Source: Gammaproteobacteria bacterium RIFCSPHIGHO2_12_FULL_63_22 (GTDB lineage: Bacteria; Pseudomonadota; Gammaproteobacteria; Xanthomonadales; Xanthomonadaceae). Taken from it: 64,000 nt of DNA. Positions 9,115-41,008 of the stretch are shown here, in pieces. Position 1 is the first letter of the stretch. Each line of letters starts with the position of its first letter. Below the pieces are notes generated by a model. That model saw nothing but the letters and a program-made list of their open reading frames with translations, was not told where the DNA came from and did not search any database. The stretch is taken from contig MGYJ01000090.1 in assembly GCA_001801685.1 (NCBI GenBank), positions 1 to 64,000 of the forward strand. The letters are read 5' to 3'. The translations under genes were made by a program, and so were the position numbers.

Positions 9115-9151
9115 GCGGCCCTCCTTGGATGGCCCAGGGCACGGCGGTCCA

Positions 9152-9655
9152 TCACGGACCGCTGTGTAGGTTGTCGTACACCACGTCGAACCGCTCGACG
9201 CGCTCCCCTCTTCGCACCTCAATGCGGAAGCGATGATGGCGACCTTTCGCGATGACGAAGGTCGTCCCGAACGACAGCGCGTCTCCCAACGGCATCGGCT
9301 CGAGCACCTTGCTCATCGCCACGCCCTTGGGCGGGGTATGCCGTACGGTCACCGTGGCCTGCGTGATGCGCTGGCCGGTCGGAGTATCAAACAGCGCGAC
9401 AACCAGGTGGTGGGTGTCGGACGCGGGGCGGGCCGCGCCGTGCACTTCCGGCGCGGGCGGGTGCGCCGCGAGGGTGGCTTGGGACAGCACAGCGGGGACC
9501 ACGCCGTAGTAGAGCGTGATCCGCTCGTTCTGCTGACGCTGGTCCGTGGGCGCCGCCTGGGCCGCCCCTGCGACCGCCACCGCCACCGCCACCGCTCCCA
9601 TCACGGCCCACCTCAGGCGCCGAGCGTGGCCACCCGCTCCGCGCGCCTGGCTCAT
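9152..9655 (-). CDS. Secreted YtkA-like protein of unknown function
   Basis: A 167-residue protein with an Ala/Val-rich signal segment ending near GAAQAAPT. The mature part reads like an immunoglobulin-fold YtkA-like domain: THHLVVALFDTPTGQRI, TQATVTVRHTPP, KVLEPMPLGDALSFG and HHRFRIEVRRG. Such domains accompany metal-transport and copper proteins, but the role here is unproven. The ATG at 9655 overlaps the methyltransferase stop as ATGA. A later ATG would trim the basic n-region and is less likely. Confidence 0.65.
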   Translation of the reverse strand: MSQARGAGGHARRLRWAVMGAVAVAVAVAGAAQAAPTDQRQQNERITLYYGVVPAVLSQATLAAHPPAPEVHGAARPASDTHHLVVALFDTPTGQRITQATVTVRHTPPKGVAMSKVLEPMPLGDALSFGTTFVIAKGRHHRFRIEVRRGERVERFDVVYDNLHSGP

Positions 9656-20178: not shown

Positions 20179-21612
20179 CTAGGCGCCATAGAAGCGCTTG
20201 ACTGCTTCCACATTTTGGAGCGACTTCGGGCGGTATGGCTCAACACTCGAACAGTGCTTTACCGAGCCAAGTTCGAATCGTTCGATGACTGACGGATGCA
20301 ATTTCGCACCGGGATCAATCTTTCGAGGTGCGGCCTTCCACCCAACCCAGCGGTTCAGCCGTCCCAGTCGATCACTCCTAGCATTAACTTCGCAGTGCTG
20401 CAGGCCATCGGCTCGAGGAAACAAGTGAAGTTTTCGCGTATCAATCGCCATGGGAAACGGAATGGCAGTAGCTTCATCGATCATCCATTTCAACGCGATA
20501 TCAGACAGTCGAGACTCATTTTCCGAGTAGCTTCCGCCGATATCCGAGTGATTTCCCGCAAACCAAACTTGCTTGAGCCACACGATGGGGTCATTTGCAT
20601 GGGCCAGCACATCGGCACTGTGTCCCCAACCAACTTGAGCGAAGTCAACGCGCGTCTCGTCGATGGCAAGCGCCTGCCGCGCATACCCTGTGCGCGGGTC
20701 CAACGACCGATCATAGTTACGCAGTCGCCAATTCGCATAGTGGGTACGTGCCTTGATCCCAGAATCCAGCGCGTCAAACACCTTTCGTCGAGCTCGCAAA
20801 AGTCGAAACGCAGTCCAGGCCATAACCGATAGGATTGCTCCAACGAAAAGTGGGATCCAAGCCACGCCAACAACGACACCAACAATCCGCGCTAACACAA
20901 GCGATCCGAAGAGCGCAACGGCCGCAATCAATGCAATGAATAGGATGCGACGCCTGCCTGAGCTGCCGAGTGCGGCCACTGTGTCGAACACACCAATGAA
21001 TTCTGGGGCGACATTGCCGCGCTCACTTGAACCCGGCGGAACGCCGATCTCTTCCGATTGATACTCAACCCGAAAGCGCCGAGCCAGTTCTTCGCGCTCG
21101 GGTTCAAAATCCTCACGTTTATGCCCAGCGCCGTGTTCATAGACGTGCCGAACCGCGCGCTCGGCAATCTTTCTCAAAGCCTTGCCGCCAGCCGGCAAAA
21201 CGCCGCCATGCTTGATCGAGGGTGGCACGCCGCACAGGTTCAGGACATTGGCCAAACTTCGGATGGTGTAGGCACCCCGACTGAATCCGAAGAGATAGAT
21301 TCGATCGCCCGGTTCGTACAGTTGAAGTAGGGCTTCGTAGCAATCGATGATGTTCTCAGTAATGCCCGAGCCCGCGAGACTGCCCAACCCCTGCAGCACG
21401 CGATCTAGCAGTTTTATTCTTAGACCTGATGCCTCGCTTTGCGTGCCCAAACCTGGATCGTAGAAGGCGACTTGCTCGGCAGGATCGATCTCGTTTTCAA
21501 CGCTCACCCGAGTTGCCCTGTACAGCTTGTAGACGTTACTCAAGTTCTGGTCCGGCCGTATTCCGCCGGCTTGGCCCGTTCCATCTGAAAAGATCAAGAT
21601 ATTCTTGGGCAT
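20179..21612 (-). CDS. DUF2235 (Tle1-like) hydrolase with internal membrane helices
   Basis: A 477-residue protein. It begins NILIFSDGTGQAGG and carries YLFGFSRGAYTIRSLA, the GxSxG nucleophile region of DUF2235, a family that includes type VI secretion phospholipases. EFIGVFDTVAALG and WFAGNHSDIGGSY supply the expected Asp and His regions. Between them two helices (about residues 225-275) would anchor it in a membrane, which is unusual for Tle1 effectors. No type VI structural gene or PAAR/VgrG is visible, so a cell-internal effector is more likely than a secreted one. Start ATG 21612 has AGGA upstream. The DNA here is visibly more AT-rich than the flanking genes. Confidence 0.8.
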   Translation of the reverse strand: MPKNILIFSDGTGQAGGIRPDQNLSNVYKLYRATRVSVENEIDPAEQVAFYDPGLGTQSEASGLRIKLLDRVLQGLGSLAGSGITENIIDCYEALLQLYEPGDRIYLFGFSRGAYTIRSLANVLNLCGVPPSIKHGGVLPAGGKALRKIAERAVRHVYEHGAGHKREDFEPEREELARRFRVEYQSEEIGVPPGSSERGNVAPEFIGVFDTVAALGSSGRRRILFIALIAAVALFGSLVLARIVGVVVGVAWIPLFVGAILSVMAWTAFRLLRARRKVFDALDSGIKARTHYANWRLRNYDRSLDPRTGYARQALAIDETRVDFAQVGWGHSADVLAHANDPIVWLKQVWFAGNHSDIGGSYSENESRLSDIALKWMIDEATAIPFPMAIDTRKLHLFPRADGLQHCEVNARSDRLGRLNRWVGWKAAPRKIDPGAKLHPSVIERFELGSVKHCSSVEPYRPKSLQNVEAVKRFYGA

Positions 21613-21680
21613 ATCATCCAGTCCTAAATGTTTGTCCAGACGTGTAATGGTTGCGCGGACCGAGCGCGCGGAGGAGGTCG

Positions 21681-22439
21681 CTAGTCTTTCGCGGCCCCCA
21701 CTAAGGCCCACACATAGAAGGGATCAGCATCAGGCGTGGGCATGAGCGTGACCGAATTGACGAGAACCTTGGAATCGCGGGGGAGGCGCCCAGCTTGATA
21801 TTCGGCTGCGGTTTCCGGTCGGTAGCCCCATGGCGGGTCGAGGATGCGGTTGCATCGTTGTGCCGGCACCGCCGCCCCATAACCGGATACGAGTAGCGAA
21901 AGTTCCTTCGTAGTGATGATGTAATCACCCTTGTCGGGGATCGGTGACTTCTGTCCTCCGCTCGCTGGAAGCCGGAATCCAGGCGGAAGCTCATAGTTGG
22001 ACCGCGACTTGCTGAAGCGTCCAAGATAGATCCACGCCAGGTTGCACGGAAGTTCGCTTCGAGTGACTGCGTGCCCGCCGTCGTCAGTGCTCGTCCTGTC
22101 TTGAAAGAACGCGAACGCAAGAACGACTACCAAGCTGATAACCGTGGGTACGAGTGTATCTCGCCAGCCCGTTGACTTTGCCGCAGCCGAACCGCGGCCA
22201 GGGCGCTTGGGCGCTACGACCCGTCGTGCCCAAATCAGGCCCAGAACGAGTCCCACCGGATATGCCCACTTGGATGGACCGGCGCCCTCCATGAAGAGAA
22301 TCGGGGTACCTCCCAAGGCCGCGCCGATAACCTGGAGCATGCCGCGCACAGTAGGCTTTGAGGAGACCTTTACCGTAAGGCTAAGCAGAAATCCTACAAA
22401 TCCGCCGAGGAAGAGTATTCCGACGTAGGCAAAATTCAT
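21681..22439 (-). CDS. Membrane protein of unknown function
   Basis: A 252-residue protein with about four helices in the first 125 residues (VGILFLGGFVGFLLSL; MLQVIGAALGGTPILFM; YPVGLVLGLIWA; TVISLVVVLAFAF). A soluble tail of about 125 residues contains LPCNLAWIYLGRF, PDKGDYIITTKELSLL and SVTLMPTPDADPFY. I recognise no family. It lies 25 bp downstream of the WYL regulator and 68 bp upstream of the DUF2235 gene on the same strand, so all probably share a transcript. It could be a partner, anchor or inhibitor of the DUF2235 hydrolase. Confidence 0.55.
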   Translation of the reverse strand: MNFAYVGILFLGGFVGFLLSLTVKVSSKPTVRGMLQVIGAALGGTPILFMEGAGPSKWAYPVGLVLGLIWARRVVAPKRPGRGSAAAKSTGWRDTLVPTVISLVVVLAFAFFQDRTSTDDGGHAVTRSELPCNLAWIYLGRFSKSRSNYELPPGFRLPASGGQKSPIPDKGDYIITTKELSLLVSGYGAAVPAQRCNRILDPPWGYRPETAAEYQAGRLPRDSKVLVNSVTLMPTPDADPFYVWALVGAAKD

Positions 22440-22464: not shown

Positions 22465-23358
22465 TCATGCAGGCTCCTTCGTCGCTCCAAACGTTGCGCG
22501 TACCAGTTCCAATTCGCTACGGTTTTGCAACACGATTTGTCGACGCCACACCGGCAGCAAGTCGGTCGGGAGGTCGAGGCCATAGTGGCGCTCGAAGTAG
22601 TGGGTCATACACAATCGCATCGATATGCCAATGACCCCGTCGGTCATGCCATAGTCCATTTCGATTGCTTGGCGTTGCGTTTCCGAAAGCTCGGGATGTG
22701 GCGCCAATGTAATTGTGAAACACTCTTGCCACTGCCGATCTAGCGTTGCATCTATTCCAGATAGGCGTGTTTCTCCGATCGACAAAATGCGTGCCAGTAC
22801 AAAGTCGCTGAAAACGGAACGGTTATAGCACCAGCTTCTGGCGTGCCATCGCGCGCCATCGTAGACGAGCGAATGCGGCGCGATCCAGCGGAGGGTAGGT
22901 TGGGGTGCCGTCATGGATTGGTAGCGAATTTCAATCGCGCGTCGTTGGTTCATTGCCGTGACAATCGGTCGCAGGGTGTGCGGGTCCATTCGTCGCCGCA
23001 CCCTGGGCATGGCCGCGTGCGCCGGAATCGCTCCCAACCAGGAGTCGCCCGAGTCGATCGCGTCGTCGGCGAGTAGCAACAGTTGCGTCAAATAGTGGCG
23101 AGCGTTGGGGACGATGAAGCGCGGCGCGAAATTGCTGGTGGCGACATAAACCTTTCGGCTTCGATCAAATTCCACATTGCCGGGTGCCAAGCCCATGTAG
23201 TTCGCGACGTCATCCGAGGCTTGCGGCGCTGAAATTGCAAAGCGTCGCATCAAATCGGATCGACTGATGGCGCCTTCCCAATACAGTCGCTGTTCGAGAA
23301 ACCCGTAGCGCTGGCGCTGACTCCAGCGGGTCGTGGCGGGCAGGGATTGGTCACTCAT
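22465..23358 (-). CDS. CapW/BrxR-type WYL-domain transcription regulator
   Basis: A 297-residue protein. An N-terminal winged helix (RYGFLEQRLYWEGAISRSDLMRRFAISAPQAS) is followed by the WYL domain (AIEIRYQSMTAPQP; LRWIAPHSLVYDGARWHARSW) and a WCX-like C-terminal part ending WRRQIVLQNR. This order and length match the CapW/BrxR repressors that control CBASS, BREX and other phage-defence loci. It is transcribed away from the SLATT/CD-NTase genes, the usual CapW arrangement. Unusually, a second candidate effector operon lies 25 bp downstream on its own strand. A ligand released in infection is thought to relieve repression in this family. Confidence 0.85.
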   Translation of the reverse strand: MSDQSLPATTRWSQRQRYGFLEQRLYWEGAISRSDLMRRFAISAPQASDDVANYMGLAPGNVEFDRSRKVYVATSNFAPRFIVPNARHYLTQLLLLADDAIDSGDSWLGAIPAHAAMPRVRRRMDPHTLRPIVTAMNQRRAIEIRYQSMTAPQPTLRWIAPHSLVYDGARWHARSWCYNRSVFSDFVLARILSIGETRLSGIDATLDRQWQECFTITLAPHPELSETQRQAIEMDYGMTDGVIGISMRLCMTHYFERHYGLDLPTDLLPVWRRQIVLQNRSELELVRATFGATKEPA

Positions 23359-23416: not shown

Positions 23417-23603
23417 TCTTAATCTCGGTTAAGGTAGTATGCGTACTTGGCAGTCGTTATGCCTGAGTGCTAATGTACATCAAACACTAGCGCTGGGCCA
23501 TTCCCGCTCACGGGGAACCACATCTTGGGCTCGAGGTTCGCGCTGTCACCTGTGTTCTCTGCGCCGGGGTCAGGCGGGAACCCATCGTCAATGGAGAGGC
23601 TGC

Positions 23604-24167
23604 ATGTCGGATTTTTCGTCGCTCGAGGACCAGATCCGCGAATGTTTCGGGCGGGTTGTATACACGCACAAGACGCACGAAAAGATGGCGGAGCTATGCT
23701 CGAGCAAGTTGACCTACTACAAAATAGGTCAAATCGTTGCCTCCGCGCTAACGACCTCGGGCATTTTGGTCGTTGTCCTGGCAGCCCAGCCGCCTGTGTA
23801 CATAAAAATTGCGACGGCGCTTCTTTCTGTGGCAACGCTCTGCCTTTCGGGCTACATGAAAGGCTTCGATCCAGGCGGAACCGCGCAGAAGCATCGCGAC
23901 GCCGCCGCGAGCCTGTGGCCGATCCGGGAGTCGTACCTTTCGTTGCTGACTGAACTACGGTTGGGCTCGGTTGACTTGCCGGCCGTGTTAGAACGCCGAG
24001 ACGCGTTGCAGGCCGAACTCGCTGCCGTCTACAAGGGCGCGCCGCAAACCAGCGGCAAGGCGTACGGCCTCGCACAGACGGCACTGAAGAAGAACGAGGA
24101 ATACACCTTCTCCGATGCGGAGATCGATGCCTTTGTGCCGATCTCGCTGCGCAAGAGCAAGCCGTGA
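23604..24167 (+). CDS. SLATT-family two-TM effector (CBASS-associated)
   Basis: A 187-residue protein. Residues about 35-80 form two close membrane helices (IGQIVASALTTSGILVVVLA and IATALLSVATLCLSGYM), preceded and followed by helical soluble parts, the plan of SLATT proteins (SMODS- and SLOG-associated two-TM effectors). AQKHRDAAASLWPIRESYLSLLTEL is typical of the conserved C-terminal helix. In known systems such proteins breach the inner membrane when they sense the nucleotide made by the neighbouring CD-NTase. GGAGAGG precedes ATG 23604. It is 31 bp upstream of the first CD-NTase gene. Confidence 0.85.
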   Translation: MSDFSSLEDQIRECFGRVVYTHKTHEKMAELCSSKLTYYKIGQIVASALTTSGILVVVLAAQPPVYIKIATALLSVATLCLSGYMKGFDPGGTAQKHRDAAASLWPIRESYLSLLTELRLGSVDLPAVLERRDALQAELAAVYKGAPQTSGKAYGLAQTALKKNEEYTFSDAEIDAFVPISLRKSKP

Positions 24168-24198
24168 TCGAGTTCAACAAAATCGCCGGGAGTTGATC

Positions 24199-25491
24199 GT
24201 GAGCCAGGCAAGCCTGTTCAAGGAATTTCGCGCCAACCTCACGGTGGCCAATGCGGAAGCGATCTCGATCAGCTACAACAACATCACTGCGCGTTTGAAC
24301 AAGGATTACTGGGATTCCGAATCCGACGTCTACCACAGCATGAAGATCGGGTCCTGGGGCCGGCATACAGCCATCAACGGCGTCAGCGACCTTGACATGG
24401 TGTTCGAGATTCCGGAAGACGACTACAACCGTTACAAGAACCTGCAGGGCAATGGCCCATCGACCATGCTGCGCGAGGTCAAGGAGTGCCTGCAGGCGCG
24501 TTATCCGACGACGTTGATCAAGGCGGACGGCCAGATCGTCGGTGTCTTCTTCAAAGACTACCGCGTCGAGGTCCTGCCGGCGTTTCGTGACGCCGATGAC
24601 AACTACGTCCACGGCGATACGAACAACGGCGGCACTTGGAAGACCACCAAGCCACGGCCGGAAATCGCGGCCGTCAATGCCCTGGACAAGCTGGCCAATG
24701 GCAACCTCAAGCAGGTCTGCAAGATGCTGCGTGCCTGGAAAAACCAGAACGGCGTTGGCATCGGCGGATTGCTCGTCGATACTTTCGCTTACAACTTCTT
24801 CGTCGAAAACGATGAGTATCACTCGGCTGCTTTCTCGAACTATCCGGACTTGATGGTGTCGGTGTTCGCCTATCTTGGCGGACTGCCGTTCCAGGACTAC
24901 TGGTACGCACCCGGCAGCAACCAACGCGTCAAATGCAAAACCAAGTTCCAGGCCAAGGCGCGAAAAGCGGCGGCCAAATCCGAACTTGCCAGCAAAGCAG
25001 AGGATGAGGTCGAGCAGTCGAAGTTGTGGCGGCAGATTTTCGGCCCGCTCTTTCCGAAGGTGGAAGCCGTCGCCAAGAGCGCTGTACTGGCCGAAAGCAT
25101 CGTCGACCACGAGGAATTCATCGAGGACACGGCCCCGCTGGATATCCGCTACGACATTGAGATCGACTGCGAGGTCAAGCAGGCCAACGTCTTGACCGAT
25201 TTGCTGCGGACGATGCGAAAGTCGGGTAAGCGCTTGCCGACTGGGCGCCACTTGCGGTTCTTCGTCCGCAGCTCGGACGTGCCGCCGCCGTATCTGCTCA
25301 AGTGGAAGGTGCGCAATCGCGGCGCGGAAGCCCGGCGCAGGAACATGCTTCGCGGCGAAATTTCGCCTGACGGCGGCCAATCGCAGCGGCTCGAGAGCAC
25401 CAGCTTTGCTGGCGACCACTATGTCGAGGTGTATGCGATCAAGGACGGCTACACCGTTGCGCGGGACAGGATTTCGGTGCCGATCGAGTAG
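24199..25491 (+). CDS. CD-NTase (SMODS) with AGS-C-like sensor domain
   Basis: A 430-residue nucleotidyltransferase. The catalytic core shows GSWG (51-54), DLD (Asp64, Asp66) and the third acidic residue Glu124 in RVEVLPAF, with NNGGTWKTTKPRPE in the nucleotide-binding region. The C-terminal part (about 330-430) reads LRFFVRSSDVPPPYLLKWKVRNRG and FAGDHYVEVYAIKDGYTVARDRI, the AGS-C sensor pattern. It should make a cyclic di- or trinucleotide in response to infection. The start is the GTG at 24199, with GGGAG upstream. Product identity cannot be read from sequence. Confidence 0.9.
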   Translation: MSQASLFKEFRANLTVANAEAISISYNNITARLNKDYWDSESDVYHSMKIGSWGRHTAINGVSDLDMVFEIPEDDYNRYKNLQGNGPSTMLREVKECLQARYPTTLIKADGQIVGVFFKDYRVEVLPAFRDADDNYVHGDTNNGGTWKTTKPRPEIAAVNALDKLANGNLKQVCKMLRAWKNQNGVGIGGLLVDTFAYNFFVENDEYHSAAFSNYPDLMVSVFAYLGGLPFQDYWYAPGSNQRVKCKTKFQAKARKAAAKSELASKAEDEVEQSKLWRQIFGPLFPKVEAVAKSAVLAESIVDHEEFIEDTAPLDIRYDIEIDCEVKQANVLTDLLRTMRKSGKRLPTGRHLRFFVRSSDVPPPYLLKWKVRNRGAEARRRNMLRGEISPDGGQSQRLESTSFAGDHYVEVYAIKDGYTVARDRISVPIE

Positions 25492-25573
25492 TTCTGGCAG
25501 GCGCCCGTCGGCGCGGATGTAGTACAGCCACAAGTAGACCACTGCGGAGTCCCCGTTCAACCAAAGGCAGCCC

Positions 25574-26455
25574 ATGTCGATCGCGGACTGGTTTCAGACG
25601 TTCTGCCGGAAGTTGCAGGTCTCCAACGGAGCGGCGATTTCCAGGCGCTACCAGAACATCACGCAACGGCTGAACACGGATTTCTGGAGCACGACTTCCG
25701 AGACGGCGCACAGCCTCTATGTCGGTTCTTATGGCCGCAACACCGCCATTGACGGCTTCAGCGACCTGGACATGATTTTCCATCTTCCGTCCTCGTTGTA
25801 CGAAAAGTACGACAAGTACACCGTTAACGGTCAATCCGCCTTGCTGCAGGCAGTCAAGACGTCGATCGAAAGAACCTACTCGACCACCAGTATTCGAGCC
25901 GATGGGCAAGTCATCGTCGTGCCGTTCACGGATGGAATGTACTTCGAGGTCGTGCCTGGATTCGACAACGTCGGTGGCACCTTCACCTATCCCGACGCCA
26001 ACAACGGAGGGGTGTGGCGCACCACCGATCCCAAACCCGAGATCAAGGCTATTCGGGACCGGAACGGGGAAACGAATGGCAACCTGGTTTGGCTATGTCG
26101 AATGGCCCGGCAGTGGAAGCAGGAATGGTCGGTACCGATTGGCGGATTGCTCATCGACACCCTGGCCTATCAGTTCATCGAGAGCTGGGCTTACAAGGAC
26201 AAGTCGTTCTTCTACTACGACTATCTGTGCCGCGACTTCTTTGCCTGGCTGGCCAACCAGAGCCTGGAGCAGGAGTACTGGCGCGCACCAGGAAGCGGTC
26301 AGCGCGTGCACGGAAAAGGTCTGTTCCAACACAAGGCAAAGCGCTGTTACAACCTTGCCCTCGAAGCCATCGCCCACGAAACAGCGAAACCATCGCGGGA
26401 ATGGTCGGCCAAGCAAAAGTGGCGCGAAATATTCGGAACCACCTTTCCAGATTGA
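25574..26455 (+). CDS. Second CD-NTase (SMODS), catalytic core only
   Basis: A 293-residue paralogue collinear with the first enzyme: GSYG at 51-54, Asp64 and Asp66 in DLD, Glu125 in YFEVVPGF, then NNGGVWRTTDPKPE. All catalytic residues are present, so it should be active. It ends at KWREIFGTTFPD and lacks the AGS-C tail. It begins 82 bp after the first CD-NTase, with AAGGCAG before ATG 25574, and no effector gene follows on the strand. It may make a different nucleotide, form a heterodimer with the first enzyme, or be left from a second system. Confidence 0.88.
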   Translation: MSIADWFQTFCRKLQVSNGAAISRRYQNITQRLNTDFWSTTSETAHSLYVGSYGRNTAIDGFSDLDMIFHLPSSLYEKYDKYTVNGQSALLQAVKTSIERTYSTTSIRADGQVIVVPFTDGMYFEVVPGFDNVGGTFTYPDANNGGVWRTTDPKPEIKAIRDRNGETNGNLVWLCRMARQWKQEWSVPIGGLLIDTLAYQFIESWAYKDKSFFYYDYLCRDFFAWLANQSLEQEYWRAPGSGQRVHGKGLFQHKAKRCYNLALEAIAHETAKPSREWSAKQKWREIFGTTFPD

Positions 26456-26838: not shown

Positions 26839-27861
26839 TCAAATCGATTGAACCTTCGATGCCTTCGGATCGACCGGCGGCAGCCCCAGCCGGGTACGCA
26901 GCACCAGCTTCAGCGCTTGCATCGCGGTTTCATTCGCGCTGGCCAGCTCCTCGGTCTTTACGCCCGTATGAACCAGCTTGCCGCGAAGGTCGTAGGCCGC
27001 CACCACTTGCTTCGCGAAATGCTCACGTTCCGGCTCCTTCAGGCTTGGCTGGTCCAGGATCAACTGGCGGATGCGCCGGCGAATCGAATGCTCCTTGCGA
27101 AAGTCCAGCTCTCGATGCAACGACTGCAGCGCATCACGCGCATCAGCATCCGCCTCGGTGGCCAGTTGCCCGTCAACATCGGCTTGCAGCTTCTCCAGGA
27201 GTTTCACGGCCGCCGTGTGCTTGGACGTACGCGGGGCCAGCACCTCGAGCGCGATCATTCGTGTCAGGAAGCACGCCCGCGGCGCAGTTTCGTAAAAGCT
27301 GCCCAAGTACAGTTCGATGGCAACAGCCAAGTCCGTTTCATCCGCGTTGGCCGGCAGCACGGCGCCGTCAATGCCCTTGATCAGCGCCGGTGCGATGGTT
27401 TGCCACCCGAGCATCACTTTCCCGGTGAGGTATCCAGAGATGGCTTTCACCTTCTGGCCGCGAGGGTAAACGCAGTAGCCTGGCTCTTGCGTGAACCCCT
27501 TGGTGATCGTCTGCAGTTTCAACTCGGGAAGAAATGCAATCTGGTGCTCCAAGGCCAAGTTCCACAGTCCGGCCAGCAGCCGCGGCAGGAACGCGAGCGC
27601 GTCCTCGGGCGAGGGGAAGTCCCCCGCCTCGACGACCAAATGGCCGACCGAGTCACTCAGGGTGATTTCGCGGCTTGCGGCAGTGAAGCGGGGCTCGTCG
27701 CGCAGATTGAAAATCGGCTCGGCCACGCGCGTTGCCACGGACACGCGCAGCACGAACGATTCCGCCGAGGCGGCCGCGCTCAGTGAAGGCGAGCGACGTC
27801 GCCTGGGTGCCGTGGCCAGGCGAGCGGGACGTCGAGCCAACTGCAGCCGGCGGCGCGTCAT
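26839..27861 (-). CDS. HEPN-like (Apea-type) protein, fourth gene of unknown operon
   Basis: A 340-residue protein whose helical C-terminus contains YDLRGKLVHTG, an R-x4-H pair (Arg293, His298) as in HEPN ribonucleases and Apea-like domains. The middle is helical (LDFRKEHSIRRRIRQLILDQ), and the N-terminal 40 residues are Arg/Ala/Ser-rich and poorly ordered. ATG 27861 overlaps the preceding stop as ATGA, so it is translationally coupled to the 450-residue protein. If active it would cut RNA; in a defence operon such a protein is often the toxic effector. The fold call rests on one motif. Confidence 0.55.
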   Translation of the reverse strand: MTRRRLQLARRPARLATAPRRRRSPSLSAAASAESFVLRVSVATRVAEPIFNLRDEPRFTAASREITLSDSVGHLVVEAGDFPSPEDALAFLPRLLAGLWNLALEHQIAFLPELKLQTITKGFTQEPGYCVYPRGQKVKAISGYLTGKVMLGWQTIAPALIKGIDGAVLPANADETDLAVAIELYLGSFYETAPRACFLTRMIALEVLAPRTSKHTAAVKLLEKLQADVDGQLATEADADARDALQSLHRELDFRKEHSIRRRIRQLILDQPSLKEPEREHFAKQVVAAYDLRGKLVHTGVKTEELASANETAMQALKLVLRTRLGLPPVDPKASKVQSI

Positions 27862-29210
27862 GCCGGTGGCCTACGAAAGTCCGCCGTCGCCGGATCGACA
27901 TCGGCAAAGCCGAATTCGAGCCAGTCATCGTCTTCATCGCCACCGGGCAACACCGAGGCCGACGTCAGCAACTGGCCGCGCTCCAGCGCCCGCGCGAAGG
28001 GATTGGGCTCGGAGCGCTCAGATTCCGGATGCCATCCGTAAATTCGCTGGAACTCTTCGGCCGAAATCCGTCCTGCCAGGAGGTCAAGCACGACACGCGC
28101 GGAAAGACTCACGGATTTGTGGTTCATGCGGATTCCTAAAGTGCCCGTGCCCGTGCCCGGAGCGGGGAGCGAGGCGCGCAGCGAAGCGTTGTGGGGGTCG
28201 AGCACGGGAACGGGCAGATGGGCGAGGGCCCGTTCCAGGTACTGGCGAAGCGCGGCACCGGCTTCGACGGTCCGTCGTGTTCCGGGCTGTGCGGGAGCGC
28301 CTGCGATCCGCGCTCGCAGCTCGTGGCGACGATCGTGTGGATCCAGCGGATTGAGGCGCTCAGGGCTGACGATCAGCACCAGGTCGATGGCGGAGGACTT
28401 GCGCAGGAACTGGCCGACGATCTCCTCGGCCGACATCGAGGTGGACAGCTGCGAGCGCTGCATCGCCTGGCACCCCGCATCGCACAAGATCACCACGCGC
28501 AAGGAATCTGGAGGCGCGCCGCTAAGCTGTTTTTCCTTCTTGCTCAGCTGAGTGTAAATTGGGTTGCGGATGGGCGAAGTGAATGAGGTGTACGCGGCGT
28601 GCCCGCCGCCACCGAATTGCTGCCGCATGTCGTAGGAAATCGTGACGTCGGCGTCGTCGACACGGATTTCCAACTTGCCGGTCGCGTCGCCCGTTCGGGC
28701 CAGGGCTCGCAGAAAGGGCACGACGTGCTGTTTGAGGAAGCCTTGGAGTTCAGCCCGCGACGGGAGCTTTAGCACCGTGCGGGTCTTGGGGTATTCGCCT
28801 TCGATCCGGTGGCCGACCTGGTACTTGAAGTGGTTCGGATTCAGCTTGGCGACGCGGGCGAGCCGGACCAGTTCGTTCCAAAATTGCTGAATCGGGTTGG
28901 TCTCGTGCAGGCCCCGGTCCGACGCGCAGGTAATGTCGCCGACCACATTCACGACCCCGCCCGCTATAGGCAGGCTAAAGCTGAAATCCGGGCTCTTGCC
29001 GGTGACCAAGGGCCGTTCGTGGTCGAACGGTCCGACTTGACCCAGCGCATGCAGCCACACCGCTTCCCACATGGCGGGCAACCGCCCGGTGCCGGATTGA
29101 TTTAGCCGGCCCAGCAGGTCATCCAATGCCTTCGCGCTAAGCTGCGCCGACAAGGCGTCCAGCCGTTGCTGCAGCGCTCGCCGGGAAAAGATGAGCAGCT
29201 TCACTCGCAT
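27858..29210 (-). CDS. Unknown 450-residue protein with nuclease-like motif series
   Basis: I recognise no family. Near the N-terminus it has WE (48-49), LHA (53-55), SPDF (73-76) and GDIT (91-94). The same series appears in the upstream protein at 29953-30996 and resembles the E...PD...(D/E)x(K/T) layout of restriction-endonuclease-like folds. Later parts include YDMRQQFGGGGHAAYTSF, VVILCDAGCQAM (a Rossmann-like strand) and an Asp/Glu-rich end. Start ATG 29210. It is 72 bp after the IEFK protein and overlaps the HEPN-like gene by four bases. Probably one part of a multi-gene defence system. Confidence 0.6.
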   Translation of the reverse strand: MRVKLLIFSRRALQQRLDALSAQLSAKALDDLLGRLNQSGTGRLPAMWEAVWLHALGQVGPFDHERPLVTGKSPDFSFSLPIAGGVVNVVGDITCASDRGLHETNPIQQFWNELVRLARVAKLNPNHFKYQVGHRIEGEYPKTRTVLKLPSRAELQGFLKQHVVPFLRALARTGDATGKLEIRVDDADVTISYDMRQQFGGGGHAAYTSFTSPIRNPIYTQLSKKEKQLSGAPPDSLRVVILCDAGCQAMQRSQLSTSMSAEEIVGQFLRKSSAIDLVLIVSPERLNPLDPHDRRHELRARIAGAPAQPGTRRTVEAGAALRQYLERALAHLPVPVLDPHNASLRASLPAPGTGTGTLGIRMNHKSVSLSARVVLDLLAGRISAEEFQRIYGWHPESERSEPNPFARALERGQLLTSASVLPGGDEDDDWLEFGFADVDPATADFRRPPA

Positions 29211-29282
29211 GCCGGCTCGGCTGACTCCGTCGCGCGAAGGACGGGCACGCGCGGTGGCGGGGTGGACACGGTAGCCATGGGT

Positions 29283-29873
29283 TCAGCGCTTGAAACCTGG
29301 ACGAGGCACGGGCTTAGGTTCACTGGGCAGCTGCTGCGCCTGCATCAGGTGGGGGAACAAGGCTCTGGCGTAGGCCTTCAAACTTATGACGTGCACGATC
29401 TTATTGGACGTATTCAGCCCCAGCACCGTGGCGTAGTCCGAGAGAGCGATCGCCCCTGATCCTCGCTTGTGCCTCTTTCGAAGCGCCAGCAGCTGCAGCA
29501 GATACTTCGAAAAAGGCTTCGGCGGCAAGCCCAGGGGTAGGGATTCAGAGATATTCACTGGGTGTCTGGCGAAATATCGGCGCGCCTTCAGGTCAAAGCC
29601 ATTCGTGGATGTCTCACCGTAGACCAGCAGGTGGTGCTCGTCCGAGCCCTTCAGCAGCTCTTCGGCCTGTTCGTAGCGGACAAATTTCTTCATCTCCGAA
29701 TCCAGTTTCGACTCCTCCGCCTTGAACTCGATGAGCAGCAAACCGGACAGGTGGCCGAAAATGGCGTCGCCCGCGATTTCATGCGTGCCTGCCAGGGGCG
29801 CGCCGAAGTCGGCTAGGTTGTTTCTGACGACCCTGGCGACAAACGCGTATTCGACCGTCTTTTCCCACATCAT
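29283..29873 (-). CDS. PD-(D/E)xK-like nuclease domain protein
   Basis: A 196-residue protein. WEKTVEYAF at the start is followed by GDA (Asp36) and LLIEFK (Glu49, Lys51), the D...ExK spacing of the PD-(D/E)xK nuclease fold. HHLLVYGET could be the next core strand. The C-terminal half is basic and helical (YLLQLLALRKRHKRG). AAAGGAG precedes ATG 29873; ATG 29870 is the alternative. It lies between two other proteins with related motif series, 79 bp after the first. A DNA- or RNA-cutting role is inferred, not proven. Confidence 0.6.
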   Translation of the reverse strand: MMWEKTVEYAFVARVVRNNLADFGAPLAGTHEIAGDAIFGHLSGLLLIEFKAEESKLDSEMKKFVRYEQAEELLKGSDEHHLLVYGETSTNGFDLKARRYFARHPVNISESLPLGLPPKPFSKYLLQLLALRKRHKRGSGAIALSDYATVLGLNTSNKIVHVISLKAYARALFPHLMQAQQLPSEPKPVPRPGFKR

Positions 29874-29952
29874 TGGGCTTGCTCCTTTTCGATACAGCCA
29901 CGAGCACCATGGCCTGGCCGCGCGATCCCGCAGCCGCCAAGTCCGACTCGCA

Positions 29953-30996
29953 TTACCCGCGCCCCTGGGCACGATCGACTTCGTCTCTCGACGAGAGCGT
30001 AATCAGCGAGCGCATTAGCAAGAAATCATCCGGCCCGACCTCTTCCACCGTGCCATCGCCGCGCACGAGAAACTGCGCCAGTCGTTCGTGGGCAAACACC
30101 TCTGGGGTCAACGGATGCGCGGCGAACGGGTTGTGGAGCACGTACAGCCCGTCGAGCAGGTGCTCGACATACACTGACTTCGGGGTCTTGCGGATCTGCG
30201 GAATCAATTCCGAGGAGGAAGGGTGCAAGGTGGTGAACCAGATGCCCTTGTCGGGCGCATCGGCCAAGGCGCGCAGCTTGCCCCAGGTCGCCAATGGACC
30301 GTAGATCACGGCCGAGACTTCTGCGTAATCGGGGTTCGTGAAGAAGCCCACCGGCACGTCGGCGGTCGCGTGCTTGGGAACTGCGTCGATGTCGTAGTTC
30401 ACCACGGCGTCCGTCTGGCCGGCGATCGTCGCCTCCTCGTCGAAATACACCCCGTACAGCGCGGCAATGATCGGGCGGTTGGCCGCCAGATGGGCCTGGG
30501 GGCGATCGAAGGGCGCGATGGCGATGACGAAAGGACGCTCCTTGGCCTGCGGCAAGGTCGCGTAGTACTCCCGATAACGTTTGGCCTTGGCGGTGAAGCT
30601 GTTGCACAGGCGCACGATCGCCTGGCGGTTGAACTCGTTCAGATCCCCGGGCAGTTGCGGTGGATCGGCCCCAAAGGCCAGCGCACCGCCTTGGGCCGGG
30701 CTGGCGATGGTCGCCTCCAGCACCAGCGGCGTGGGTGCGGTGACCACGAAATCCGGTGAGGCGAACGCACCATCCACGGTCAGGCCCAGCGCCTTGAGGG
30801 TCGCATGCAGGTACAGCTCCCAGAAGCTGGACTCAAAGGTCGTCTGGAACTCCTGCACGAACTTGCCGTCCCGGTCTTGGAAGCCGGTTGCCCATTCGGT
30901 GAGGACGGCGCGCTCGGGGGTGTTGTCGGTCGCCAGCAACATCCGGAAGATCGGATGCTGGCGCTCGGCGGGCACGATGGGAGTGAAAAGGTCCAC
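29953..30996 (-). CDS. Unknown protein with nuclease-like motif series, first gene of operon
   Basis: With GTG 30996 as start the product is 347 residues (MDLFTPIVPAERQHP). A TTG at 31029 is an alternative and neither has a strong ribosome site, so the start is uncertain. FE (54-55), WE (59-60), LHA (63-65), SPDF (80-83) and LEAT (93-96) form the same series as in the 450-residue protein downstream. FVIAIAPFDRP and VSAVIYGPL are probable core strands. No family recognised. It heads the four-gene operon, 195 bp after the cyclodeaminase-like gene. Confidence 0.6.
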   Translation of the reverse strand: MDLFTPIVPAERQHPIFRMLLATDNTPERAVLTEWATGFQDRDGKFVQEFQTTFESSFWELYLHATLKALGLTVDGAFASPDFVVTAPTPLVLEATIASPAQGGALAFGADPPQLPGDLNEFNRQAIVRLCNSFTAKAKRYREYYATLPQAKERPFVIAIAPFDRPQAHLAANRPIIAALYGVYFDEEATIAGQTDAVVNYDIDAVPKHATADVPVGFFTNPDYAEVSAVIYGPLATWGKLRALADAPDKGIWFTTLHPSSSELIPQIRKTPKSVYVEHLLDGLYVLHNPFAAHPLTPEVFAHERLAQFLVRGDGTVEEVGPDDFLLMRSLITLSSRDEVDRAQGRG

Positions 30997-31223: not shown

Positions 31224-31910
31224 TTAGGGTTCGCCGCCGACGGCGGGCTGCTCCCGGGCGATCGCTTCGTTTTGTAGCCGCACGATGCGCTCGAGCAGCC
31301 CCGCCTGCAGGTGTTGCGCGCGCAGAGACAGTTCGTCGGCCTTCTTTCGCGTCTGGACCGCCCACTCACTGCCCTTGAAGCTGGTCAGGTTGAGGTAAAC
31401 GATCGAGATGGCGCCGGTGGCGCCGGCCAGGGCGGCACTGATCGCCACGCCCGAGTCGCCGCGGGCGGCCTTGAACCCCAGGTCGAACACCAGCATGGCG
31501 CGATCGGCCAGATGCAGGCAGGTTTCGGCGATGCGGATCGGAATCTCGGTGGCGGTGCGCAACTCATGCAGTGCCTGTTCGGCCAGGTGGCGTTTTTTGA
31601 CCTTATCCTTTTCGTTGTTGCGCTGGTTGCGAAGGGTAATGACGCGATCAAACTGGTCGGAGTCTTCCTGCACGGTCGCCAGCAAGAACGGCTCGACGTC
31701 ATCTAGGATGTCCTGGTTGGCCAGGGTGAGCTGCGCTTCGACGCCTTGGTATTGGTCACGCCCAGCCGACAAAGTGACCACCGTCTGGATGAGCTTGCAG
31801 GCGACCAGCCCAAGCAAGGCGGCGGCACTGCCGGAGCCTGGCTTGTGACCGCCCGCTCCCAGCTTGGTCAGCAACTGGTCGGTTGGCAGCTTGATCAGTT
31901 CTTGTGGCAT
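31224..31910 (-). CDS. Cyclodeaminase/cyclohydrolase-family protein
   Basis: A 228-residue all-helical protein. KPGSGSAAALLGLVACKL is the glycine-rich N-terminal signature of the formiminotransferase-cyclodeaminase and methenyl-THF cyclohydrolase family, and ATEIPIRIAETC matches its second conserved segment. Such enzymes process one-carbon folates. No folate or histidine-degradation gene is nearby, and its place ahead of a nuclease-like operon is odd. Start ATG 31910. Either a cargo metabolic gene or a family member reused in a conflict system. Confidence 0.75.
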   Translation of the reverse strand: MPQELIKLPTDQLLTKLGAGGHKPGSGSAAALLGLVACKLIQTVVTLSAGRDQYQGVEAQLTLANQDILDDVEPFLLATVQEDSDQFDRVITLRNQRNNEKDKVKKRHLAEQALHELRTATEIPIRIAETCLHLADRAMLVFDLGFKAARGDSGVAISAALAGATGAISIVYLNLTSFKGSEWAVQTRKKADELSLRAQHLQAGLLERIVRLQNEAIAREQPAVGGEP

Positions 31911-32004
31911 AGGCGACCCCGGGCGAGGAGCCAACGCTACCGCAGCCGGACCGCTGTTGCCGACAATCCGTTCGCGGACGTAAATAATTCACACCTCGCG
32001 GCGG

Positions 32005-32361
32005 CTATTTCTTGGTCACGTCATCCCCAGCCTCGGGCAGTGCCGACGTCATGCTTGTGGTGAATTTCTTGTCGAAGTGGTTCAGGAAGGTTTCCATCAG
32101 ATGCCCGTGGTAGTAACCGTATACGGGCACCGTCACCGACTTGTCCTTGGGCCGAATGATGTTGAACGTCAGTCGATCCTTGCCGACGCTCGGCTTGAAG
32201 TAGGCCTTTGACTTCCAATCAGCCGCCTTGTGGGTGTAGTGCTTGCCGTCCTCCAGTTTCTCCCAGGTCGTGATCTTGCCTTCGGCTTCGGTCTGGTGGA
32301 TGCGCGCGTCGAACTCCTTGAGCAGGCTGGCGGGATCGGGTGTGAGGAAGTGAATGGCCAT
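32005..32361 (-). CDS. Small hypothetical protein
   Basis: A 118-residue soluble protein, MAIHFLTPDPASLLKEFD at the start and rich in Lys and aromatic residues, with LTFNIIRPKDKSVTVPVYGYYHGHLMETF in the middle. It reads like a compact alpha/beta protein with no signal or membrane helix. No family recognised. It stands alone, 94 bp upstream of the cyclodeaminase-like gene on the same strand. Confidence 0.6.
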   Translation of the reverse strand: MAIHFLTPDPASLLKEFDARIHQTEAEGKITTWEKLEDGKHYTHKAADWKSKAYFKPSVGKDRLTFNIIRPKDKSVTVPVYGYYHGHLMETFLNHFDKKFTTSMTSALPEAGDDVTKK

Positions 32362-32698: not shown

Positions 32699-33982
32699 CT
32701 ATCCGGCGTTGAACAGCTTTGTCTGCCGGCTGGTCGTAAGCCGATCACCATCGGTCAGCGTCGAGGACTTCAGGCGGCGCGCGCCTTCGGGCGAGAACGC
32801 ATCGATCTCCTTGAGCTCGATCAGGCGCCCCAAGGCATCCTTGTACTTGCTGCTGTCGGCCGGCGAGGTGTTGCAGGTGGTGGAGAACAGCTCGCCGAAG
32901 GTCAGGCCCACGTCGTGCGCGTGGATGCGCCGCGGCAGCTGTTCCATCAGCGCCTTGACGCTCGCCTCCCCGGCGGGATCGTCGAAGCCGAAGGGCAGGG
33001 CGCTCTGGCCGAGGAAACCGTCATCCTTGCGTGTCTGGTAGCCCAGGACCGCGCCCTGGAACATGTCGATGCCGGCGCCGCCGTAGTGCAGGAAATCGTT
33101 GTTGCTGCGCCAGTGCACGCCGGTCATGACGTCGCGAGCCCGCGGATGCTGCGACAGGTGCACCAGCCAGTAGTCGCCGTGACCGGTCGTGCGGATGAAG
33201 AAGACCGTGTAGAACTGCGCGCCGGTCGCATCGATCAGGCTGCGGTACAGGCTACTCTGGATGAACAGGCGGAACTCGGGCTCGCTGGCCTTGATCTCGC
33301 GCACTGAGCGACCCTGGAAGACATTGGGGATGCCCATGGCCTGCAGGGTCTTGCGCGACTGCGGGGTGTCGCTGACGAAGTTGATGAAGGAGTCCACCGC
33401 GAAGGTCAGGATGACCTCCGAACGCGGCAACTCGCTCAGGATGTTGCGGATCAGCGGCAGCGGCACGTCCTTGTAGCCGTACTGATCGAGCAGGAAGAGC
33501 GAGCGACCACTGCGCGGGCTCTTGCCCTTGATGAACTGGATGATCGACTGGGCGTGATCTTCGAAGCCGCCCGGGTGCAGGTGAATGTCGGCCCCGAACC
33601 GATCGCCGAAGCCTTCTGCGCGCAGCGTCTTCTGCAGGGATGCGAAGCCGTCGCGGTTCTTCTCCACAAAGATGTAGTCCACCAGCATCTTCAGCGGCTT
33701 GGTGCGCGCCAGGCCCATCAGCGCTTCGGCTTCGCGCACGGTGTTGAGGAACGCGAAGGGGGAGCCGAGCACGCGCTCGCCGGTGTCCTCGTGACTGTAG
33801 ACGCCGCCGCCGGCGAAGCCGTCAACCAGCGTGACGCGCATGGCGTCCTGGTGCGGCGAGCTGACCAGCGTCTGCAGGTACTCGAGCAGGTAGGCCTTGA
33901 GGACCTCGTGCTTGGCCACGCTGTGCTGGGCGATTTGCGCGGGGGCGCCGTCGGCCTTCCACTCGTAGGCTTTCTTGACCAC
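32699..33982 (-). CDS. tcmP: Three-Cys-motif partner protein TcmP
   Basis: A 427-residue protein with VTLVDGFAGGGVY near the start, YIFVEKNRDGFASLQ, SLFLLDQYGYKDVPLP and VILTFAVDSFINF. These are the conserved segments of TcmP proteins, whose fold resembles methyltransferases. It is always found beside a three-Cys-motif protein, and here the DUF5131 gene lies 83 bp upstream on the same strand. Joint function unknown; the pair travels on mobile DNA and has been suspected of a defence role. Start ATG 33982. Confidence 0.85.
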   Translation of the reverse strand: MVKKAYEWKADGAPAQIAQHSVAKHEVLKAYLLEYLQTLVSSPHQDAMRVTLVDGFAGGGVYSHEDTGERVLGSPFAFLNTVREAEALMGLARTKPLKMLVDYIFVEKNRDGFASLQKTLRAEGFGDRFGADIHLHPGGFEDHAQSIIQFIKGKSPRSGRSLFLLDQYGYKDVPLPLIRNILSELPRSEVILTFAVDSFINFVSDTPQSRKTLQAMGIPNVFQGRSVREIKASEPEFRLFIQSSLYRSLIDATGAQFYTVFFIRTTGHGDYWLVHLSQHPRARDVMTGVHWRSNNDFLHYGGAGIDMFQGAVLGYQTRKDDGFLGQSALPFGFDDPAGEASVKALMEQLPRRIHAHDVGLTFGELFSTTCNTSPADSSKYKDALGRLIELKEIDAFSPEGARRLKSSTLTDGDRLTTSRQTKLFNAG

Positions 33983-34065: not shown

Positions 34066-34815
34066 TCAGGCCATCGCCGCAACCGCGGCCGGCATCTCAT
34101 CCCAGGTGCGCCCGTTGAGCAGTCGGCCGTTTTTCGCCTTTGCGCGGCGCTGCCCGTCGGCGCCCCAGCCGCCCCATTGCTTGAAGAAGAACGCGACCTC
34201 CTGAGCCTGGCACTGCAGTCGGACCGATTCGGCCCACTCCGGCGCCATGGGTCGCGCCTTGGGCCCGGACTCGCCGCCCACGATCACCCAATGGATGCCA
34301 CTTAGGTCGAGCGCGCCCACGTCTTCCAGCAACGGTTCGACCGACAAAAAGCGGATGCCGGCGTTGATGGTGCGCAGGTAGTCAATGCGAGGCACGCCGT
34401 GACGGCAGTTCTCCACGGACACGCCGAGCCACACATTGGCCGGCACGGGACGCGTGCGGAAGAAGCGCGCCATGCGCGCCGCGCGCTTGGTCAATACTTG
34501 GTAGGAGTGCTGCGGCGTTGCGGCCATTACCGCGACAATTTGCTCGATGTAGCTGTCCGGCACCTTCTCGTGGAACAGGTCCGACATGGAGTTGACGAAG
34601 TAGGTGGTGGGCTTCTTGCGCTTGAGCGGCTCCTCGAGCCGGTTGGGTAGCAACGTCAAGGCAAAGCCGTTCTCATAGCCGGCGGTGCCCATCGCCTTCA
34701 GGCGCCGCGACAGAGTTTCGGCATAGCAGTGCTTGCAGCCGGCCGAGATCTTGGTGCAGCCGACGATCGGATTCCAGGTCTGCTCGGTCCATTCGATTTT
34801 CGAGGTAGTCGTCAT
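34066..34815 (-). CDS. DUF5131 / phage Gp37-Gp68-like three-Cys-motif protein
   Basis: A 249-residue protein opening IEWTEQTWNPIVGCTKISAGCKHCYA. The three cysteines (CxxxxxGCxxCY) resemble a radical-SAM iron-sulfur cluster site, and the barrel-like remainder contains NSMSDLFH, WLGVSVEN, RFLSVEPLLE and HWVIVGGESG, all DUF5131 signatures. It is the partner of the adjacent tcmP gene. ATG 34815. Reaction unknown. Confidence 0.88.
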   Translation of the reverse strand: MTTTSKIEWTEQTWNPIVGCTKISAGCKHCYAETLSRRLKAMGTAGYENGFALTLLPNRLEEPLKRKKPTTYFVNSMSDLFHEKVPDSYIEQIVAVMAATPQHSYQVLTKRAARMARFFRTRPVPANVWLGVSVENCRHGVPRIDYLRTINAGIRFLSVEPLLEDVGALDLSGIHWVIVGGESGPKARPMAPEWAESVRLQCQAQEVAFFFKQWGGWGADGQRRAKAKNGRLLNGRTWDEMPAAVAAMA

Positions 34816-34900: not shown

Positions 34901-35986
34901 TCACGAGCCGTTCTCGAGAAGTCGTGCGGCCGGATTGCTCGCCGCGCTGCCCGACTGGAAATAGCCGATCGCCTGCGCGACCGAGCGGTGCTCGGTGAGC
35001 GCCATCAGGGCGGGCAGGGCGACCCCTTGTCGACCGCCTTCGGTGATAAAGCCCGAGCGCAGGCTGTGACCGGCGAAATTCCCGCTCAGACCTGCCCGGG
35101 CGGCCCGCCGTTGCACGATGCTGGCAACCGCTTTCGGCGACAGCGCCGGGCCGATCCGGTTGCCCCACAGCCGGCGGAAGAGGGCGCCCTCGCTGATCTT
35201 CGAAGCCGCCAGCCACGCGGCAAGCGCGACGCCGGCCGCGCCCAGCACGGGCTTGTCGGGCGTGGCGGTCGCGCTCGGCCCGGCCTGCTGGGTCTTGCTG
35301 TGTTCCAGGCGGTAGATGAAGTCAGTGTCTTGCGTGCAGCGCAGGTCCTGCCAGTCGGCCGCGGCGATCTCGCTGCGTCGGCGGCCGCCGCTGGCAAAAC
35401 CGAATAGCAGCAGGGCGCGATCGCGTAGGCCTTTCAGGGAGTCGTCGCAGGTCGCCACCATGGCCGTCAGTTCGGCCTTGGCGATCGCGGACTTCTTCGT
35501 CGGCCGTTCGCCGCGCTTGACGGTCGCCCGGCGACCGCGCGCAAGCAGATGCCGCACGGCGGGCGACTCGCAGGGGTTGTCGGCGTTGTGGGCGCGGTGC
35601 GCCGCCGACAGCACCGCGACGCGATGGATGATGGTGCTGAGTTTGTAGGGACCGAGGCGCTGTTTGAGGCCGGCGTCGATCAGCTGCTGATCCAGGGACG
35701 CCGGCAGTTCCCACGCCAGCGGACCGCCCTCGGAGCGCCGCGCCAGGTGGTCGACGATGAACTGGACGACAGTGGCGTCCGGCACCGGCAGCGCGATCGG
35801 CTGGCCGTACCGGCCCTGGAACCACGCCGCCCAGTAGCGCAGGGCGCTGTCATAGCTGCGCGTGGTGTTGGCCGACGCCGCCTCGGCCAGCAGCTCGCGC
35901 ACGGCTTCGGCGGCCTGCGCCGCCAGCCGGTCCGGGGCGAGCGTCGCAATCGTCGCCGGCGAGGGTGGAGAAGTGATAGGTTTCAT
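34901..35986 (-). CDS. Tyrosine recombinase (integrase)
   Basis: A 361-residue site-specific recombinase. The N-terminal SAM-like domain (NTTRSYDSALRYWAAWFQG) is followed by the catalytic domain with Arg in GGRRRSEI, HSLRSG (H-x-x-R), the second His in TEHRS and nucleophile Tyr in IGYFQSG, so all key residues are present. ATG 35986 lies in an AT-rich segment with an 8-bp dyad. It may have moved this element or part of it, but it sits about 15 kb from the recJ junction and no attachment site could be identified. Confidence 0.9.
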   Translation of the reverse strand: MKPITSPPSPATIATLAPDRLAAQAAEAVRELLAEAASANTTRSYDSALRYWAAWFQGRYGQPIALPVPDATVVQFIVDHLARRSEGGPLAWELPASLDQQLIDAGLKQRLGPYKLSTIIHRVAVLSAAHRAHNADNPCESPAVRHLLARGRRATVKRGERPTKKSAIAKAELTAMVATCDDSLKGLRDRALLLFGFASGGRRRSEIAAADWQDLRCTQDTDFIYRLEHSKTQQAGPSATATPDKPVLGAAGVALAAWLAASKISEGALFRRLWGNRIGPALSPKAVASIVQRRAARAGLSGNFAGHSLRSGFITEGGRQGVALPALMALTEHRSVAQAIGYFQSGSAASNPAARLLENGS

Positions 35987-37955: not shown

Positions 37956-38594
37956 ATGAGCGGTACCGAAAAGATCGGGGAAATGTTGTCGTCCCACATC
38001 CCCAAGGACTTCCTGTTGAGCGTAGACGCTCGGTTCCATGCGGCGCTGGATCAGGCCACCGCCCAGGGCCAATCCTTCGCCCCGGGCCACCGTAGCAACG
38101 TTACCGGAGTCTGCCGACACTTCAAGCTGAACGAAGCACTGGACGATGCCTTCACCGAGTTCGACATCACGCACCGTCCGCTGCGCGGCAACGCGATCGT
38201 CGCTGGCGATTTCGGGCCTGTCGCAATCGCCCGGTTCCACAAGAACAAGGGCCCGTGGAATAACTCGCGCCGCAGTGCCGGCAAGCTGGGCCTGTGCCGC
38301 AAGAACAACGTAGCGGAATATCTGGTGCAGCCCGATTTTCTGCGCGAAGAGAACGCTGCGCTCACGGAGTTGACGTGCTTTCTGGTCACCGAGCACGACG
38401 GGCGCCCCGACGAGTCGGGCGAAATTTACCTGGTCGTGCCGGACACGGACATGGACCTGAAGAATTTGCTTTTCCAGGAATCGCTCACGCAGTTCATGCA
38501 ACGCTACCAGAAGGTCCAGGCGCTAGCTGACCGCGCGGTGCCGACCCTCAAGCCGGGCGTCAAGCGCCAGCAGCCGCGCGAGGACCGTTCGTGA
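37956..38594 (+). CDS. Unknown protein coupled to ImmA/IrrE gene
   Basis: A 212-residue soluble protein with no recognised family. It contains HFKLNEALDDAFTEF, GPVAIARFHKNKGPWNNSRRS, LTCFLVTEHDGRPDESGEIYLVVPDTD and a helical end. AAGGAAAGG precedes ATG 37956. Its stop overlaps the next start as GTGA, so it is made in step with the XRE-ImmA protein. ImmA/IrrE proteases usually cut a repressor or antitoxin-like partner, so this may be their target or the toxin they hold in check. Confidence 0.6.
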   Translation: MSGTEKIGEMLSSHIPKDFLLSVDARFHAALDQATAQGQSFAPGHRSNVTGVCRHFKLNEALDDAFTEFDITHRPLRGNAIVAGDFGPVAIARFHKNKGPWNNSRRSAGKLGLCRKNNVAEYLVQPDFLREENAALTELTCFLVTEHDGRPDESGEIYLVVPDTDMDLKNLLFQESLTQFMQRYQKVQALADRAVPTLKPGVKRQQPREDRS

Positions 38595-40931: not shown

Positions 40932-41008
40932 GCGCGGCGTAGGATTTTGACGCGGGATAATCTCGGGCCATGCACAGAACACACGGCAGCAATATCAGGA
41001 GCGACACC

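Follow-up and report, generated by a model that had tools for sequence, protein, structure and literature searches.

Four genes lying one behind another on the same strand raise the question of whether they work as one system or were gathered separately. Such a group is present at positions 26839-30996 of the first 64,000 nucleotides of contig MGYJ01000090.1 from Gammaproteobacteria bacterium RIFCSPHIGHO2_12_FULL_63_22 (this whole stretch is hereafter the window). Four co-directional open reading frames (ORFs), A, B, C, and D, of 347, 196, 450, and 340 codons, were found there on the minus strand, and the motif strings quoted in an earlier note on this DNA were read in their sequences as that note had given them. 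The note had tentatively joined them into one uncharacterised system of four subunits. Since homologues of the genes do not co-occur in the loci examined and gene A matches a known defence family, A-D are most probably independently acquired, mobile anti-phage modules of one gene each, stacked in a defence island with an integrase gene, and the four-subunit proposal was abandoned on the same two grounds. The four genes are as follows.

Gene A: 29953..30996, minus strand, 347 amino acids from a GTG start; PD-T7-5 family.
Gene B: 29283..29873, minus strand, 196 amino acids; small PD-(D/E)xK nuclease-like protein with W3-E4-K5, G35-D36, and I48-E49-F50-K51.
Gene C: 27858..29210, minus strand, 450 amino acids; member of an unnamed family (PHROG 33687) with E49, P74-D75, (D/E)92-x-T94, D98, and then K225-x2-Q228.
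Gene D: 26839..27753, minus strand, about 304 amino acids from a probable GTG start at 27753 (or 27744), 340 amino acids from the annotated ATG at 27861; putatively HEPN-like.

A and B are separated by 79 nucleotides and B and C by 72, whereas with its annotated start D shares 4 nucleotides with C. No Pfam match was obtained for A, B, C, or D at an expectation value (E) ≤ 10. The sole NCBIfam match of the four was that of D, at 18.6 bits far under the family cut-off of 498 bits; for the family of C, the NCBIfam scan covered C and three relatives.

Co-occurrence of the four genes in other genomes

Family profiles of A-D were searched (E ≤ 0.01) against the six-frame ORFs of 69 loci, comprising 27 loci of C, 10 of A, 3 of B, and 3 of D, two of the latter being one place, with the rest fetched otherwise. 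The window contained one match to each profile, and no other locus held two of the families. A conserved operon A-B-C-D was therefore rejected. For C, the flanks extended as far as 8 kb each way where the contig allowed; they were 4-5 kb for A and 6 kb for B, and those of D were 6 kb at L008 and 18 kb in total at its second place. Among the 69 loci, L036 and L072 are one place, and L018/L020, L041/L042, and L043/L044 look alike. The earlier note had itself named co-occurrence of homologues beforehand as the observation on which its system depended, and none was seen in these loci.

When the 27 C loci were searched with A-D by tblastn, C alone was likewise returned, with no A, B, or D. In a clustering of the genes near C, only two families besides C reached three loci, and for each of them two of the three were the near-identical L005 and L007; one C ORF (L016) was missed by the ORF picker in this clustering. 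No D lies next to the closest relative of C (58% identity; Dyella lutea, L014). The three plasmid loci of B that were inspected (Vibrio, Cupriavidus, and Providencia) contain no A, C, or D.

Gene A and its likeness to gene C

Residues 1-335 of the 347 in gene A aligned with positions 1-342 of the 346 in the PADLOC model PD-T7-5 (PDLC04110; E 1.3e-103), and the gene also matched PHROG 8571 (E 1.9e-86). A table in PMC10952713 places PD-T7-5 under PD(D/E)XK nuclease. The PD-prefixed system names originate in the functional selection of PMC9519451, which describes five single-protein systems with only a putative DNase domain and treats the way in which such proteins sense phage as unclear; its main text does not contain the name PD-T7-5. 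Relatives of A were found in 104 of 72,556 plasmid records and in 8 viral contigs. An alignment was built from the window protein, two plasmid relatives, and five of the eight viral ones; E60, P81-D82-F83, E94-A95, R129, and K137 were invariant in it (8/8 rows). The GTG start is consistent with relatives that begin MDLF. Gene A also matched positions 108-436 of the longer PD-T7-1 model (PDLC04073; E 3.4e-46), but the first 107 positions of that model were left uncovered and the score to PD-T7-5 was far better. These results support, through family assignment, the view that gene A encodes a PD-T7-5-type nuclease-like protein of an already known family. PD-T7-5 is, as we take it, a one-gene system, and presumably one of the five single-protein systems of that selection. 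The residues of W-E, P-D-F, and E-A are kept in all eight relatives aligned here, and gene A differs from the known system in sitting in a stack with three further nuclease-type genes.

The motif series WE, LHA, SPDF, and then LEAT or GDIT, which the earlier note had read as common to A and C, was retained in part. BLASTP of A against C gave no meaningful match, and hhalign gave a probability of 0.2%, yet in the aligned segment the two WE motifs coincide, as do the two PD motifs. In the family of A, the S of SPDF is kept in 3/8 rows and the T of LEAT in 5/8. In the family of C, the S is private to the window protein (1/19 rows), the F occurs in 3/19, and the H of LHA in 13/19; for C, neither this S nor this F was accepted as evidence. 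In view of these counts, the LHA-SPDF likeness is partly coincidence. As read from their sequences, A and C thus share a real motif order without demonstrable homology.

Genes B, C, and D as candidate nucleases

The WEK, GD, and IEFK motifs of gene B were kept in all four aligned rows. Their order, E, then D, then (D/E)xK, is that of the textbook and makes B a well-supported PD-(D/E)xK nuclease-like protein. Five plasmid records hold relatives of B. No match was obtained in Pfam, NCBIfam, PADLOC, or PHROG at the limits used, no relative was found in viral contigs, and nothing convincing was found among the sequences of solved structures. The nuclease-like label given earlier to three of the genes thus stands for B on its canonical motif and for A on its family, and is plausible for C.

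Residues 47-446 of gene C matched positions 1-397 of the 401 in PHROG 33687 (E 1.7e-53), a group of viral proteins with no assigned function; the nuclease reading of C derives from the present alignment. A literature search by the number of this group returned no paper, and we know of no other name for C or for D. Relatives were present in 12 plasmid records and at 21 genome loci. The window protein was aligned with the relatives from 18 of the 21 genome loci, without those of L016, L020, and L029 and without the plasmid sequences; E49, PD75, (D/E)92, and the downstream K225/Q228 were invariant in the resulting 19 rows. At the D of GDIT, 17 rows have D and 2 have E. Position 94 is T in 18 rows and R in one, and never K; K225, kept in all rows, lies elsewhere. 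Gene C alone found no relative in genome contigs, its alignment found none in viral contigs, and the alignment gave nothing convincing against the sequences of solved structures.

The active site of C is probably E49, D75, and (D/E)92. The third motif would have T94 in place of its usual lysine, which K225, located in a later helix, may supply; the motif then reads (D/E)xT-x2-(S/N)-D. The family of A offers a parallel, with E-A in the third motif followed by the invariant R129 and K137. BamHI and other restriction enzymes of the PD-(D/E)xK type differ in having (D/E)xK where C has (D/E)xT, and no methyltransferase is encoded among A-D. It is a tentative reading that C represents a widely scattered, unnamed, single-gene anti-phage nuclease family of Proteobacteria and, judging from the PHROG match, some phages, with the lysine displaced to the invariant K-x2-Q of the later helix. 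In two Bradyrhizobium loci (L005 and L007), the relative of C at about 8001-9333 is annotated as two coding sequences in different frames, beside an AbiEii-type gene; these are possibly decayed copies.

The AlphaFold2 (AF2) model of C had a predicted local distance difference test score (pLDDT) of 81.6 and a predicted template modelling score (pTM) of 0.76. The order of helix, strand, strand, and helix around the motifs in this model is compatible with the PD-(D/E)xK core. In the fold comparison, restriction-enzyme matches were weak and ranked below unrelated folds, with BamHI and PspGI among the best 20 rows. Foldseek returned no viral model at E ≤ 0.001.

Gene D carries Y290-x2-R293-x4-H298 (340-residue numbering) near its C-terminus. 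The earlier note had relied on the R-x4-H of this motif, which by itself was rejected as evidence, being within chance (present in 47% of 2000 shuffled D sequences). The argument for HEPN consequently rests on conservation in three sequences: Y290, R293, and H298 are kept in all three family members, the other two being a protein in a genome of the same order (E 1.5e-12) and one on a Piscinibacter plasmid (E 5e-9) that is annotated as a HEPN domain-containing protein. Neither D nor the plasmid relative matched Pfam, and nothing convincing was found for the pair among the sequences of solved structures. The single-sequence model of D had a pLDDT of 47.5, too low for use, and no HEPN entry was prominent among the 50 fold matches listed for it. 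In hhalign, the three D rows scored 10.3 over 4 columns against four HEPN_Apea domains, and the best of 60 column shuffles scored 17.3; both alignments are thin, and that of HEPN_Apea is visibly poor. D resembles Apea-like HEPN (PF18739) and other HEPN RNases in the Y-x2-R-x4-H near the C-terminus of the three relatives, and differs from PF18739 in its lack of a Pfam match and of profile similarity in this small test. No match to D was found in phages, and no relative of D or of the Piscinibacter protein in viral contigs. Three overlapping draws of genomes, each including that of the window, gave D in 1/369, 2/299, and 1/398. D is a rare protein with a plausibly HEPN-like C-terminal part, and an HEPN RNase remains a plausible description of it.

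Alternatively, some of the four proteins, mainly C and D, might not be nucleases, C having a different fold and D a chance motif. We consider this rather unlikely, because E49, PD75, and (D/E)92 are kept in 19/19 rows of C and the Y, R, and H in 3/3 rows of D, because BamHI and PspGI occur among the first 20 rows of the fold comparison, and because the secondary structure that surrounds the C motifs agrees with the core.

The GC content by codon position of the first 37 codons of D was 0.70/0.76/0.73, versus 0.67/0.42/0.77 in the remainder, and these codons resemble the non-coding DNA that lies upstream of A (0.53/0.77/0.75). The homology with the Piscinibacter plasmid relative begins at residue 40 of D. 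Because the early codons lack a coding signature and homology starts only there, D probably begins at GTG 27753 or 27744, about 100 nucleotides past the end of C, and the ATGA overlap with C to which the earlier note had drawn attention is probably an artefact of the choice of start. This overlap and the adjacency of the genes would suit a two-gene pair of C and D, a nuclease with a HEPN partner, that arose recently in this lineage, with A and B independent. Such a pair is improbable, because the overlap depends on a start without coding signal, the relatives of D at L008 and L072 occur without C, and the 27 C loci lack D.

Surroundings, alternatives, and meaning

The window around A-D contains the following features.

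20179..21711, minus strand: protein with a Tle1-like type VI phospholipase effector domain (E 4.7e-62), in the lowest-GC stretch of the window.
22465..23358, minus strand: WYL-domain regulator, divergent from the CBASS genes.
23439..26455, plus strand: CBASS genes, a 2TM effector and then two consecutive cyclases (458 and 293 amino acids), with strong PADLOC matches; convergent to D.
31224..31934, minus strand: FTCD_C (formiminotransferase-cyclodeaminase-like) protein (E 6.6e-31), lying amid the defence genes with TcmP on one side and gene A on the other.
32005..32361, minus strand: 118-amino-acid ORF between FTCD_C and TcmP, with no convincing match in Pfam, PADLOC, NCBIfam, or PHROG.
32699..33982, minus strand: TcmP (TIGR04474, E 2e-64; PADLOC candidate PDC-M30/M41).
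34066..34815, minus strand: DUF5131 protein (PADLOC candidates PDC-M30/M41; PDC-M30B E 3e-112 for the TcmP/DUF5131 module).
34901..35986: tyrosine recombinase (integrase) by Pfam match, adjoining the TcmP/DUF5131 pair.
38591..40054, plus strand: RmrA-type protein (helix-turn-helix, M78 peptidase, and DUF2188) by model matches.
40970..43282, plus strand: KAP NTPase, PADLOC PifA model (E 1.9e-69).

The defence setting described earlier was confirmed by the PADLOC and NCBIfam matches nearby. TcmP/DUF5131 and CBASS are neighbouring modules and not part of A-D; tandem CBASS cyclases are unusual. The left end of the window has a GC content of 0.65-0.71, compared with 0.60-0.64 across the four genes and 0.55-0.60 at 17-26 kb. 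A stack such as A-D near an integrase gene, TcmP/DUF5131, and CBASS is ordinary defence-island architecture.

The surroundings of C in other genomes were scanned with 78 of 93 listed neighbour proteins, chosen by eye, omitting L007 and L020 as near copies and ORFs of <100 or ≥1200 amino acids. Among the best 25 of 130 and the best 25 of 67 families matched in the defence and Pfam searches, AbiEi/AbiEii, MkoA/MkoC, mad2, a type II methyltransferase, XamI, and TniQ were found, and other neighbours matched transposases or housekeeping-type genes.

Several points weigh against independent, stacked defence modules. The scan of C neighbours had no control, most of the listed Pfam families matched one protein, and many families are not of defence (transposase, chemotaxis, GMP synthase, and beta-lactamase fold). 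B and D are thinly sampled (three loci and two places), and an association might escape notice if restricted to a narrow lineage. The PD-(D/E)xK restriction-endonuclease-like fold of C, plausible from its motifs, was not confirmed by the model, and the HEPN fold of D is likewise unconfirmed. In addition, A-D could be co-transcribed, as they are co-directional with short gaps and a weak scan of their strand found no terminator-like or promoter-like site.

A HEPN RNase together with three PD-(D/E)xK subunits, acting as a complex that recognises phage DNA and then cuts DNA and RNA, would account for the common strand, the short gaps, and the motif order common to A and C, but is very improbable, given the lack of co-occurrence in the 27 C, 10 A, and 3 B loci and the 2 places of D, the membership of A in a PADLOC family named as a defence system of its own, and the non-significant profile similarity of A and C.

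As independent modules, A, B, and C would each act alone, cutting nucleic acid during infection, and D, also alone, would cut RNA and stop growth; these activities are suggested by the motifs. We infer the trigger of the activities, a role of B, C, and D in defence, and the separate action of each of the four genes. What is mildly new is the rarity of D, together with the unnamed family of C, whose lysine may have been displaced. A false four-subunit lead is thereby removed and replaced by testable single genes, and in the family of C, with its 27 loci, the invariant residues ease the choice of point mutants.

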